Assembly: GCA_026169375.1 (NCBI GenBank)
Contig: JAPFCR010000008.1
Span: forward strand, 1 to 64,000
Direction of reading: 5' to 3'
From: Sporosarcina sp.
GTDB taxonomy: Bacteria; Bacillota; Bacilli; Bacillales_A; Planococcaceae
DNA: 64,000 nt
Part shown: one piece after another, positions 14,962 through 43,542 of the stretch
How the letters are laid out: the number at the start of each line of letters is the position of its first letter
Position numbering within the stretch: the stretch's first letter is position 1
Notes under the pieces: model-generated
Databases searched by the model: none
The model's input: the letters and a program-made list of their open reading frames with translations, nothing else
What the model was told of the DNA's origin: nothing
Position numbers and translations under genes: made by a program

Positions 14962-15402
14962 ATGCAAATCAACACAAAATTCCACGGAACCGTAACAATT
15001 GAAAAAGAACAACAATGGACATTTCCAAAAGGACTTCCAGGATTTGAAGAAGAAGAATCATTCGTTTTACTTCCAATCGAAGGCAACGATTTCTTCCAAG
15101 TTCTCCAATCGACAACAACAGCAAGTATCGCGTTCATTGTCGCAAATCCATATACAATCGTAAAAGATTATACCTTTAAAATTGATGACCCAACGATGGA
15201 ACTTCTTAATATTCAAGAAGAAAAAGAGGTTATGGTGTTAAACGTATTGACGATTAAAGATCCGTTTGAAGCATCGACGATTAATTTACAAGCACCGCTT
15301 ATTTTCCAAGTGAACAATAAAAAAGCAAAGCAAATGATTTTAAATGAAACGAACCATTCTATGCGCCATCCTATCGAATCTACTGTGAAAGGGGAGGCGT
15401 AA
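14962..15402 (+). CDS. fliW: Flagellar assembly factor FliW
   Basis: FPKGLPGFEEEESFVLLPI...; next to csrA. Confidence 0.9.
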   Translation: MQINTKFHGTVTIEKEQQWTFPKGLPGFEEEESFVLLPIEGNDFFQVLQSTTTASIAFIVANPYTIVKDYTFKIDDPTMELLNIQEEKEVMVLNVLTIKDPFEASTINLQAPLIFQVNNKKAKQMILNETNHSMRHPIESTVKGEA

Positions 15403-15404
15403 CA

Positions 15405-15626
15405 ATGTTAGTACTTTCCCGAAAAGCAAATGAAACGATCAAAATCGGTGACGACATCGAACTTCGCATTATCGAAGTAAAAGGCGATACAGTAAAAATT
15501 GGCATCGACGCCCCGAAATCTGTTGATATTTTAAGAGGCGAACTCGTCCAGTCGATTTCAGAGACGAATACAGAAGCATTAACCATAGATCTCGATGTTT
15601 TTTCGAAATTGACGAGGAAGGAATAA
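15405..15626 (+). CDS. csrA: Carbon storage regulator CsrA
   Basis: MLVLSRKANETIKIGDDIELRIIEVKGDTVKIGIDAPKSVDILR. Confidence 0.97.
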   Translation: MLVLSRKANETIKIGDDIELRIIEVKGDTVKIGIDAPKSVDILRGELVQSISETNTEALTIDLDVFSKLTRKE

Positions 15627-15723: not shown

Positions 15724-15843
15724 CCGGTGCCAGTTACAGACATCCATTCGTAAAAGGAAGGCATCCTACGTTCGCCGCGTCCTGCGGCAACGGATGCATG
15801 ACTAACCTCCTGTTAGCCTAATTGTGGCTGCAACTGGCACCGG
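15724..15843. repeat. Dispersed palindromic repeat, family A (long 120-bp form)
   Basis: CCGGTGCCAGTT...AACTGGCACCGG perfect 12-bp terminal inverted repeat; nearly the same as 21223-21341. Confidence 0.85.
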
Positions 15844-21222: not shown

Positions 21223-21341
21223 TGGTGCCAGTTACAGACATCCATTCGCGAAAGGAAGGTATCCTACGTTCGCCGCGTCCTGCGGCAACGGATGCATGAC
21301 TAACATCCTGTTAACCCAATTGTGGCAGCAGCTGGCATCGG
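21223..21341. repeat. Dispersed palindromic repeat, family A (long form)
   Basis: TGGTGCCAGTTACAGACATCCATTCGCGAAAGGAAGGTATCCTACGTTCGCCGCGTCCTGCGGCAACGGATGCATGACTAACATCCTG..., matching 15724-15843. Confidence 0.85.
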
Positions 21342-22442: not shown

Positions 22443-24292
22443 ATGATTATTAACAACAACATTGCGGCGTTAAACACACACCGCCAACTATCATTCAACA
22501 ACACGAACGTAGGTAAAAACATCGAGAAACTTTCTTCAGGTTTCCAAATTAACCGTGCAGGAGACGACGCAGCAGGTCTAGCGATTTCTGAGAAAATGCG
22601 TGCACAAATCAAAGGCCTAGACATGGCTCAGAAAAACGCACAAGACGGAATTTCTTTAATTCAAACTGCAGAAGGTGCACTAGCAGAAACACACTCGATT
22701 TTACAACGTATGCGTGAGTTAGCAGTACAATCTGCGAACGATACGAATATGGATGATGTTGACCGTGATGCAATGCAAGCTGAATTACAAGCATTAACGG
22801 ATGAAATTAATGATATTGCGGGAAGAACAGAATTTAACACGCAAAAATTAATTGACGGGAAATTCGATGGAGTATTCCACATCGGTGCAAACGAAGGGCA
22901 AAACTTAGCAGTATCTATTAATGCAATGGATGCAAGTGGTATTGGTTTAAATGATGAATTAACAATTACAACAGAAGTTGCTGATTATACTACAGCAAAA
23001 GCAACAGTAACTGGTTTAACAGGTTTAGGAGAAGTTAATGTTCTTAGAGATAATAACACTGCTGGTGCTGTTGTAGGTGTTGAAGTGGATGGTAAGTATT
23101 ACTCTACTAACGATGTTTCTATCGCGACAGCTGGAGATGTTACTGACGGTGTGGTAGTAGGTGATGCATTAATTACTGCAGGTGCTTCAGAACTTGATGC
23201 AAAAGCAACTACTGAAGAAACAGCTACTTTTAACGGTGTAGATATTAATAGCCGTGATGCAGCGAACGCATCGATTGAAATTATTAACAATGCTATCAAT
23301 ACAGTATCTACACAACGTGCAGACCTCGGAGCAATCCAAAACCGCCTAGAGCACACAATTAACAACCTTGGTGCATCTTCAGAAAACTTAACGGCTGCGG
23401 AATCACGTATCCGTGATACTGATCACATGCAAGTAGCAGCATAAAAACTGTGAAAGAAGCATGTAGTCGTCCAGACTGGTAACGGTCTGTGAGTATTATT
23501 GGGTGAATTGCTGGAACACCTTGCGAGAGCTTTTCTAACCACAGCGTAGTTGGAAACGACAAGCGCGATGGTTTAAAAAGAGAAAAGAGGAGGCAATCAG
23601 CAGCGAAGCCCCTGTCGGGAAACCGTGGGGAACGTTCAACGACTAGGATAGACCATCTAAAGCAGAAGCCATGATGATGAAATCCGTAGGGAAGTTAGTC
23701 TTGAGTAAACTAACGACTCGAAGCGCCCAACCCCTAATCAATAGCCACAAGTCATTGAAAGGGTGAAGAGATAGTCTAGTCATGTATGAGAGTACATGTC
23801 GCACGATGGCGAAAGAAATGATGGAGTTTACAAAGAACAACATCTTAACTCAAGCATCACAAGCAATGTTAGCTCAATCAAATCAGTTACCAAATGGAGT
23901 TCTTCAACTCTTACAGTAATTAGATTGTACGGGCGTCTATGTTAGTAATAATGTAGATGATCACTGGGTGAATTGCTGGAATATCCTGAGAGCTCTTCTA
24001 CCACAGCGGAACTGGAAACGGTAAACGCAATGGTTTGAAAAACGAAGAGATTGGACAATCAGCAGCGAAGCTCCTGTCGGGAAACCGTGGAGAACGTTCA
24101 ACGACTAGGATACACCGTCTAAGGCAAAAAGCTACGGCGATGAAATCCGTAGGGTGTTACATTGATAACATTCGAAGTGCCCAGCATCCTAACTTCTTTA
24201 GGATGAAGATATAGTCTGTACTATATTCGAAAGGTATAGTGGTATAGCAAGCTAACCAACAACCTCAGGGAGTATTACAATTACTCAACTAA
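22443..24292 (+). CDS. hag: Flagellin Hag, split gene: exon 1 22443-23423, exon 2 23806-23874 (or to stop 23919), exon 3 24248-24292
   Basis: Exon 1 MIINNNIAALNTHRQLSFNN...LTAAESRIRDTD; exon 2 MAKEMMEFTKNNILTQASQAMLA(QSNQLPNGVLQLLQ*); exon 3 QANQQPQGVLQLLN*. All joins in phase 0; both isoforms 364 aa. Confidence 0.88.
23424..23805 (+). ncRNA. Group I self-splicing intron 1 (382 nt, no ORF)
   Basis: P1: exon TGAT pairs with GTCG (23466-23469) with U.G at the splice site; P1 extension ACATGC/GCATGT. Core AATCAGCAGCGAAGCCCCTGTCGGGAAACCGTGGGGAACGTTCAACGACTAGGA. P7 GACTA (23641-23645)/TAGTC (23772-23776); P9 CATGTA/TACATG; terminal G. Precise removal restores RDTD|MAKEMM. Confidence 0.9.
23875..24247 (+). 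ncRNA. Group I self-splicing intron 2 (373 nt) containing an alternative flagellin C-terminal coding tail
   Basis: Core near-identical to intron 1 (AATTGCTGGAA..., CAATCAGCAGCGAAGCTCCTGTCGGGAAACCGTGGAGAACGTTCAACGACTAGGA); P7 GACTA (24103)/TAGTC (24212); P2 TCTATGTT/AATGTAGA; P9 ACTAT/ATAGT. 3' end GGTATAG lies 7 nt after P9, as in intron 1. P1 extension CAATC (23875)/GATTG (23923); U.G at GCT|. Confidence 0.85.
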
Positions 24293-32648: not shown

Positions 32649-32874
32649 AATTTTACTTTGAAGATTTAGATGCAATTTAAATCTGCATAAGTGTCAAGGA
32701 TGCTTCACTCCCTTTACTTTTTATGTCCTTAACGCTACAATAAAGAAGAATTTAAATTATTGGAATAATGTGGATGGAAAATAGCTATACAATTCAATTT
32801 TTCACTTACGTTGTTAAATTCAATGCCTAATCTCTTATCAATTAAGAGAGGAACTATTAATAGAATAAAAAATG

Positions 32875-32961
32875 CACTAGGGGAGCTATTTTAAATGGCT
32901 GAGAGAAATAATTTTGACCCTTTGTACTCGAGATGGATAATACCGGCGTGGGGAAGTGCAG
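32875..32961 (+). promoter_or_regulatory. TPP riboswitch (THI-box)
   Basis: ACTAGGGGAGCTATTTTAAATGGCTGAGAGAAATAATTTTGACCCTTTGTACTCGAGATGGATAATACCGGCGTGGGGAAGTG matches the THI element consensus (GGGGAGC, GCTGAGA, ACCCTTT, GATAATACC.GCGT.GGGAAG). Confidence 0.9.
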
Positions 32962-32979
32962 TCTACTAAGCGTCCGATT

Positions 32980-37458: not shown

Positions 37459-38268
37459 TTACAAAATACTCAACACACCTTGATTCCGCTGATTCACTTG
37501 TGAAATAAGCAGTTGGTCACCGTATTGACGAATGTCTAGGCTAATGAAGTTCATCATTTCTTCCGCTAAATCTACATCTTCTAGTAAAGAAAGTGATTCG
37601 GATAAGTTGTTTTCAAAAGTGAGTGCGTTGCGTAGGTGGAATTCGAGTGCTTCGATATGTGAACCTACTGTTGTTAAATGCATGGACGTTTGGTTAATGG
37701 CATCGTCGAGTTTTGTTAACGCTTCGTTTGCGTCTTCGTTCGACATAACCGATAAGTCGTCAATTTGAAGCGCTTCTGTACCTGTATCGATTAACTGGAT
37801 GGTTAGTTTCTGGCCAGGATTGGCACCGACCATTAAGTTTAATGATGTATTTTCACCTAAAATTTTTCGTGTGTTAAATTCTAGTTTTGACGCAGTATCA
37901 TCGATGGCTTCGAGAATTTGATCGATTTCTTGTTGGATGTTCGCGCGGTCTTCTGTCGTCATGGTATCGTTTGCGCTTTCGACTGCGAGTTCACGGGCTC
38001 TTTGCATGAGTTCGTTGACATTATTAAGACCTTCGTTTGCTGATTCTAATAAAGAAAGCCCATCTTGCATATTACTTTGTGCACGTGAAATCCCGCGAAT
38101 TTGTGCGCGCATCGTTTCAGAAATGGAAAGACCTGAAGCGTTATCACTACTCGTTGCAATTTTTTTACCTGTTGATAAATGCTGTAAGCTTTTTTGTATT
38201 TGGTTACTATTTTTCTGGTAACGGTTTACCGAAAAAGTAATTTGATCTTGGTTTTGAACTTTCATCAT
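37459..38268 (-). CDS. Divergent accessory flagellin
   Basis: SLQHLSTGKKIATSSDNASGLSISETMRAQIRGISRAQSNMQDGLSLLESANEGL; C-term ...NQRNQGVLSIL*. Confidence 0.9.
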   Translation of the reverse strand: MMKVQNQDQITFSVNRYQKNSNQIQKSLQHLSTGKKIATSSDNASGLSISETMRAQIRGISRAQSNMQDGLSLLESANEGLNNVNELMQRARELAVESANDTMTTEDRANIQQEIDQILEAIDDTASKLEFNTRKILGENTSLNLMVGANPGQKLTIQLIDTGTEALQIDDLSVMSNEDANEALTKLDDAINQTSMHLTTVGSHIEALEFHLRNALTFENNLSESLSLLEDVDLAEEMMNFISLDIRQYGDQLLISQVNQRNQGVLSIL

Positions 38269-42696: not shown

Positions 42697-42726
42697 GTTT
42701 TCTTCATGAAAGGAGGAGACGGCATC

Positions 42727-43542
42727 ATGTTAGGAACATGGTATGCAGGTGGCTTGAACATTATGAACAATATGTACCAGCACCAAAATCAAATGTCGAT
42801 TTCAATGGAAAGACTTTCTTCAGGAATGCGCATTAACCGCGCAGCGGATGATCCAGCAGGTTTGGCGATTTCAGAGAAGATGCGTGGCCAAATTCGAGGG
42901 CTTCAAGTAGCCCAGCGAAATATTCAAGATAGTATTTCCATGTATCAAACGGCGGAAGGGGCACTTCATGAAACGCATGCGATTTTACATCGTTTACGTG
43001 AATTAAGTGTGGAAGCAGCAACAGATACATTAACAGATGCTGACCGGGAATTGATTGAATATGAATTTCAAGAGTTAAAAGAAGAAATTGAGCGTATTTC
43101 TAAAGATACAAATTTCAATACAATGCCGTTATTAGATGGTTCCCGGACTTCCTTGACAACACAAGTCGGAGCAAATACAGGACAATCAATTCAGTTTTCG
43201 ATTAACGATATAGGTGTTGATGCGATTGGACTGGCGGATACGTCAATTGCGACACGAGAGTCTGCAGAAGAAGCACTTGAACAATTAGATTATGCGATTC
43301 GTCGTGTTTCTACAGAACGCGCTCGAATTGGTGCACATACGAATCGGCTTGAACATGCGTATAATAATGCAACAACGATGGAAATCAACTTAACAGAAGC
43401 AGAGTCGCGTATTAGGGATACCGATATCGCGAAAGAAATGATGGCATTGACGAAAGCAAATATACTGCATCAAGCCAGCCAGTATGTACTCGCCATGCAT
43501 ATGCAACAAGCTCAATCTGTTTTACAGTTATTAAAACAATAA
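42727..43542 (+). CDS. Flagellin paralog (third flagellin)
   Basis: MSISMERLSSGMRINRAADDPAGLAISEKMRGQIRGLQVAQRNIQDSISMYQTAEGAL...RIRDTDIAKEMMALTKANILHQASQYVLAMHMQQAQSVLQLLKQ; uninterrupted. Confidence 0.95.
   Translation: MLGTWYAGGLNIMNNMYQHQNQMSISMERLSSGMRINRAADDPAGLAISEKMRGQIRGLQVAQRNIQDSISMYQTAEGALHETHAILHRLRELSVEAATDTLTDADRELIEYEFQELKEEIERISKDTNFNTMPLLDGSRTSLTTQVGANTGQSIQFSINDIGVDAIGLADTSIATRESAEEALEQLDYAIRRVSTERARIGAHTNRLEHAYNNATTMEINLTEAESRIRDTDIAKEMMALTKANILHQASQYVLAMHMQQAQSVLQLLKQ

Follow-up and report, generated by a model that had tools for sequence, protein, structure and literature searches.

A group I intron of a Sporosarcina flagellin gene encodes a conserved copy of the flagellin C-terminus within its P1 stem-loop

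Group I introns in bacterial protein genes are usually deemed tolerable only if they splice well. Those described in the flagellin genes of thermophilic Bacillus and Geobacillus are reported to self-splice in a temperature-dependent manner (Hayakawa and Ishizuka 2009, 2012, as cited in PMC3984707 and PMC4853749), and the passages of these two papers that cite that work say nothing of an intronic C-terminus or of a degron. Here we describe the flagellin gene hag of a Sporosarcina sp. (assembly GCA_026169375.1, contig JAPFCR010000008.1), located in a stretch of 64,000 nucleotides (nt) that was analyzed as a whole (positions 1 to 64,000 of the forward strand; hereafter "the window"). This gene contains two group I introns (72.7 and 80.1 bits for Rfam RF00028), and the second of these, intron 2, carries an in-frame copy of the flagellin C-terminus inside the stem-loop (P1) that defines its 5' splice site. 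The same tail-bearing intron is present in Geobacillus jurassicus.

Exon and intron boundaries (Table 1) were set from the reading frame and from homologues. Intron 2 has its 5' splice site between GCT and CAA (positions 23874 and 23875), and the frame of exon 2 continues into the intron to encode QSNQLPNGVLQLLQ (hereafter "the tail") before reaching a TAA stop codon at 23917-23919. The spliced product and the product that retains intron 2 would each have 364 residues, of which 4 differ in the window, with NNILTQASQAMLAQANQQPQGVLQLLN and NNILTQASQAMLAQSNQLPNGVLQLLQ as the predicted C-terminal peptides of the two isoforms. Both isoforms contain Flagellin_N and match Flagellin_C at positions 1-86 of 86 (Pfam); the product that retains intron 1 matches only 52 of the 86 Flagellin_C positions.

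Among 110 distinct homologous intron loci, gathered in relatives, in a class-wide sample and in a named genome collection, the tail consisted of exactly 14 codons and a stop in 107, while exon 3, also with 14 codons and a stop, was intact in all 106 loci where it was located. The tail-bearing genera include many Bacillales, among them Sporosarcina, Planococcus, Exiguobacterium, Oceanobacillus, Geobacillus, Anoxybacillus and Peribacillus. The ratio of nonsynonymous to synonymous differences per site (pN/pS) was 0.22 for the tail (0.14 for codons 6 to 14), at a pS of approx. 0.70, and 0.11 for exon 3; synonymous sites are near saturation while the amino acids of both tail and exon 3 stay conserved. 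The tail departs most from exon 3 in the codons that overlap the P1 extension, as pN/pS for codons 1 to 5 was 0.36 in the tail versus 0.05 in exon 3. Gene conversion between the two copies was also considered and was rejected, as the third-position identity of the tail was similar to exon 3 of its own genome (0.41) and to exon 3 of other genomes (0.39). Residue 8 matched between tail and exon 3 in 97 of 103 loci (75 expected) and residue 14 in 100 (78 expected); such joint change is as expected if both copies face the same host machinery. Bacillus subtilis strains with the hag substitutions V299D, L300E or R304E form almost no filaments (PMC6070490), and V299 and L300, numbered back from the end of the 304-residue Hag, correspond to tail residues 9 and 10, which are invariant in all 107 tails.

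Outside the Bacillales, a tail-bearing hag intron was found at one locus, in Caloranaerobacter azorensis, which suggests horizontal transfer of this intron. The only broken tail seen, with two in-frame stops, occurs in Oceanobacillus arenosus in a hag fragment that lacks the 5' part of the gene.

The nucleotides that encode the tail also form P1. An earlier sequence-only reading of the window had paired exon GCT with GGC at 23932-23934, with a U.G pair at the splice site, and this pairing was confirmed: the U.G pair and the match between exon GCU and the GGGC of the internal guide sequence (IGS) are kept in 110 of 110 parsed loci, and in two more distinct loci exon UCU goes with IGS GGGA, which represents a compensatory change. 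The same reading correctly located GATTG at 23923-23927, but its proposal that this motif extends P1 by pairing with the first five intron nucleotides, CAATC, did not hold. In the favoured fold of the window, 23881-23890 (AAUCAGUUAC) pairs with 23916-23921 and 23923-23926, at -15.9 kcal/mol versus -11.7 kcal/mol when the CAATC/GATTG register is enforced; the error of register arose because CAATCAAATC holds AATC twice. More specifically, AAUC at 23881-23884 pairs with GAUU and AGUUAC then pairs with GUAAUU, so that the stop codon is itself paired; the tail does lie within the P1 stem-loop, as had been claimed, but its TAA is part of the stem instead of the loop. An extension of 5 to 13 pairs was found in all 107 homologues with a tail, and it uses intron positions +7 to +11 in 95 to 104 of these loci and positions +2 and +3 almost never.

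As the chance of finding the 5-mer GATTG in the post-stop segment is by itself approx. 3%, it is the comparative tests, and not this 5-mer alone, that make the extension convincing. Among 59 representatives, native P1 had a mean energy of -18.3 kcal/mol, as compared to -14.2 kcal/mol (standard deviation of the shuffled mean 0.29) when post-stop strands were swapped among representatives, and none of 1000 shuffles reached the native value. Moreover, synonymous recodings of P1 were less stable than the native sequence for 58 of the 59 representatives, and native codons 6 to 14, which form an inner hairpin, folded better than synonymous versions in 57. This last result is also what would be seen if the frame in P1 were kept as RNA structure alone, with its likeness to the flagellin C-terminus an accident of the origin of the intron. 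However, a pN/pS of 0.14 for these same codons at a synonymous divergence of approx. 0.72, the fixed length and stop, and the way in which residues 8 and 14 covary with their counterparts in exon 3 all argue against structure as the sole constraint, and we regard this as the least credible of the explanations weighed here. Overall, as judged from these comparisons, the tail in P1 is a case of dual coding with a visible compromise, and the proposal that P1 doubles as coding sequence is borne out by conservation and by selection at both the RNA and the protein level.

The post-stop strand contains TTG in 74 of 103 loci (27 expected by shuffling), and the sequence-only reading had suggested that this TTG pairs with the start of exon 3 as P10; such a P10 receives no clear support, as the distance between TTG and the IGS varies between 1 and 8 nt, and the motif is for the same reason better read as the complement of CAA codons in P1. 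The Rfam alignment takes GUCUA at 23935-23939 as the IGS, which is a misalignment, as GUCUA is part of one strand of P2 and P2 pairs in 109 of 110 loci. An alternative 5' splice site between 23925 and 23926, which would pair UAGAU with GUCUA and place the intron wholly in the 3' untranslated region, was rejected because GUCUA belongs to P2.

We consider it probable that intron 2 is a fail-safe intron, in that spliced and unspliced hag messages would both give full-length flagellin. A transcript from which intron 1 has been spliced would be read through GCT into the tail, and translation would stop inside P1 with a complete flagellin; if intron 2 is spliced, exon 3 would supply the end of the protein instead. 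As either outcome would yield flagellin, the intron would be cheap to host however slow or incomplete its splicing, and removal of the cost of slow splicing could explain the wide spread of intron 2. The alignments show the tail, its conservation at the level of residues, the P1 pairing in the same nucleotides, and an exon 3 and splice sites that have stayed conserved; both flagellins would presumably be made and functional, and we infer that buffering, and not a regulated switch, is the reason why the tail persists.

Several points weigh against the fail-safe reading. The 110 loci share kinship and are hence not independent, splicing of intron 2 is deduced from conservation, and the genome has other flagellin-family genes besides the intron-bearing hag. 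The tail also differs systematically from exon 3 (S2 in 84 of 107 tails, and a residue 5 that is usually not Q), which could mean that it has a separate function instead of being a spare copy. Finally, introns without a tail exist (loci L023, L031 and L090), and the tail is thus not indispensable. On a tree of intron cores, in which several supports are weak and in which intron 1 and intron 2 are not separately monophyletic, these three introns nest among tail-bearing ones; this nesting disfavours a recent acquisition of the tail and suggests that tail-less introns arose by tail loss. The unspliced ends of these three introns (QLLVA, QFEQVA and QFEQIAA, respectively) are degron-like.

An intact, in-frame tail that is enough for full-length flagellin is also compatible with intron 2 being a C-terminal replacement element of the mitochondrial atp6 type, which no longer splices and has turned exon 3 into a relic. 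The native C-terminus has not been abandoned at hag, though, as exon 3 is intact in every locus where it was located, and purifying selection acts on it more strongly than on the tail. In addition, G is the final intron base in 106 of 106 homologues, the P1 core and P2 are retained, with compensatory changes, and the catalytic core (P3-P9) is present, with an RF00028 score of 80.1 bits against a cut-off of 50. Replacement of the C-terminus thus appears very improbable.

A further possibility, put forward in the sequence-only reading, is a translation-coupled kinetic switch, in which ribosomes at the TAA would melt P1 and delay the first step of splicing, while RNA from CsrA-repressed hag would splice, so that the ratio of isoforms would report translation. 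The stop codon precedes the wobble G of the IGS by 12-17 nt (21 nt in two loci), and a ribosome that terminates there should hence sit over the 3' strand of P1; in homologues the stop codon is frequently base-paired within P1. Splicing of group I introns can be hampered by translation over the 5' splice site (Ohman-Heden 1993, as cited in PMC3073962), fliW and csrA are located upstream of hag, and control of hag by CsrA and FliW is a plausible premise. On the other hand, the spacing between stop and IGS is alike in tail-less introns and thus generic, group I introns in protein genes generally have an in-frame stop soon after the 5' splice site, and their splicing can also be assisted by upstream translation (PMC3073962 for both). 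Moreover, among homologues the 14 C-terminal residues of the two products usually differ at 2 positions, which would leave a switch with little obvious effect. The switch is geometrically possible but less compelling as both products look equivalent, and we consider it unlikely; the fail-safe reading is preferred, as it requires fewer assumptions.

Intron 1 shows a different ending when unspliced. Its frame has 5 or 6 codons, the last two of which encode Ala-Ala before the stop in 48 of 49 homologous loci, with LAA in 30 of the 49 (most often YALAA) and HMQVAA as the form in the window. The last Ala is encoded by all four Ala codons. RNA structure alone was rejected as the source of Ala-Ala: an inverted repeat of at least 4 bases spans the stop in 38 of the 49 loci, and the other 11 still include ten Ala-Ala and one Val-Ala ending. 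The tag of the genome's own transfer-messenger RNA ends in LAFAA, and E. coli ClpXP degrades green fluorescent protein to which YALAA alone is attached (PMC7652416). These data are consistent with a putative ssrA-like degron in the unspliced tail of intron 1; no group I intron with an ssrA-like tag was described in the titles or abstracts found by literature search. We tentatively suggest, as an idea that we hold at somewhat less than even odds, that the two introns handle retention in opposite ways: retained intron 1 would add an Ala-Ala degron that destroys an export-incompetent fragment, retained intron 2 would supply a functional C-terminus and thereby preserve the protein, and splicing of intron 2 would be free to vary, even if controlled by translation, so that one gene would yield two flagellin isoforms.

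The window also contains two further, intron-less flagellin-family genes (42706-43542, forward strand; 37459-38268, reverse strand), two Bacillaceae-1 RNAs (RF01690) at 15750-15816 and 21248-21314, which are 5.5 kb apart, and a thiamine pyrophosphate riboswitch (RF00059) at 32869-32971.

Table 1. Positions in the window of hag, its introns and associated features (ORF, open reading frame)
Feature	Position	Strand	Basis or remark
fliW	14962..15402	+	ORF, by resemblance
csrA	15405..15626	+	ORF, by resemblance
Candidate CsrA-like site in hag leader: hexaloop AAGGAC on UCAC/GUGA stem, GGA in loop	22400..22413	+	Sequence resemblance
hag exon 1 (flagellin)	22443..23423	+	Pfam Flagellin_N and part of Flagellin_C
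hag group I intron 1, 382 nt, between ...RIRDTD and MAKEMM...	23424..23805	+	RF00028, 72.7 bits at 23453-23798
Unspliced frame of intron 1, HMQVAA and stop, putative ssrA-like C-terminus	23424..23444	+	Ala-Ala-stop in 48/49 loci
hag exon 2, 23 codons, MAKEMMEFTKNNILTQASQAMLA	23806..23874	+	
hag group I intron 2, 373 nt, last base G	23875..24247	+	RF00028, 80.1 bits
Intronic copy of flagellin C-terminus, QSNQLPNGVLQLLQ and TAA	23875..23919	+	14 codons and stop in 107/110 loci; pN/pS 0.22
P1 core, 5' strand, GCU (last exon bases) and C (first intron base)	23872..23875	+	GCU/GGGC in 110/110
P1 extension, 5' strand, AAUCAGUUAC, tail codons 3-6	23881..23890	+	Window fold; use of +7 to +11
Inner hairpin inside tail coding sequence	23896..23911	+	Window fold; synonymous-recoding test
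P1 extension, 3' strand, GUAAUU(A)GAUU, includes stop codon	23916..23926	+	Window fold and homologues
P1 core, 3' strand, IGS GGGC, wobble G at 23932	23931..23934	+	
P2 hairpin directly 3' of IGS	23936..23957	+	109/110 loci, many pair types; window fold
hag exon 3, QANQQPQGVLQLLN and TAA, spliced C-terminus	24248..24292	+	pN/pS 0.11; 14 codons and stop kept

Intron 2 keeps what, on the fail-safe reading, is a spare copy of the exon that it cuts off, in the very nucleotides that define its splice site, and represents a clean natural case in which a catalytic RNA and a protein sequence constrain each other. The persistence of such introns in a highly expressed gene thereby becomes testable, and if the tail of intron 1 is a degron, these introns would also manage the fate of their failures. 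Gene callers will take the unspliced tail for the C-terminus, so that many flagellin entries from Bacillales probably give only one of two products.

Among systems described previously, the c-di-GMP-controlled group I intron of C. difficile and the IStron CdISt1 resemble hag in that alternative outcomes alter expression or protein variants (PMC8987985, PMC4853749). The C. difficile introns exert their effect via a ribosome-binding site or via alternative splice sites, whereas hag would rely on retention of an intron with a C-terminus of its own; no ligand domain was seen in hag intron 2, though none was sought. The introns of phage T4 td and nrdB, like hag intron 2, have an in-frame stop near the 5' splice site, and ribosomes affect their splicing (PMC3073962). 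Unlike hag, their unspliced product is truncated, and the passages of PMC3073962 on these introns describe no copy of the missing exon. Mitochondrial mobile ORFs (Allomyces and Glomus; atp6, atp9, cox2 and nad3) share with hag an element that brings its own in-frame C-terminus of the host protein (PMC3630166), with no ribozyme P1 shared with coding sequence described for them there, unlike hag intron 2. In these mitochondrial genes the element displaces the native C-terminus, which has not been seen in the mRNA of atp6 and cox2 (PMC3630166), whereas in hag both copies of the C-terminus are under selection.
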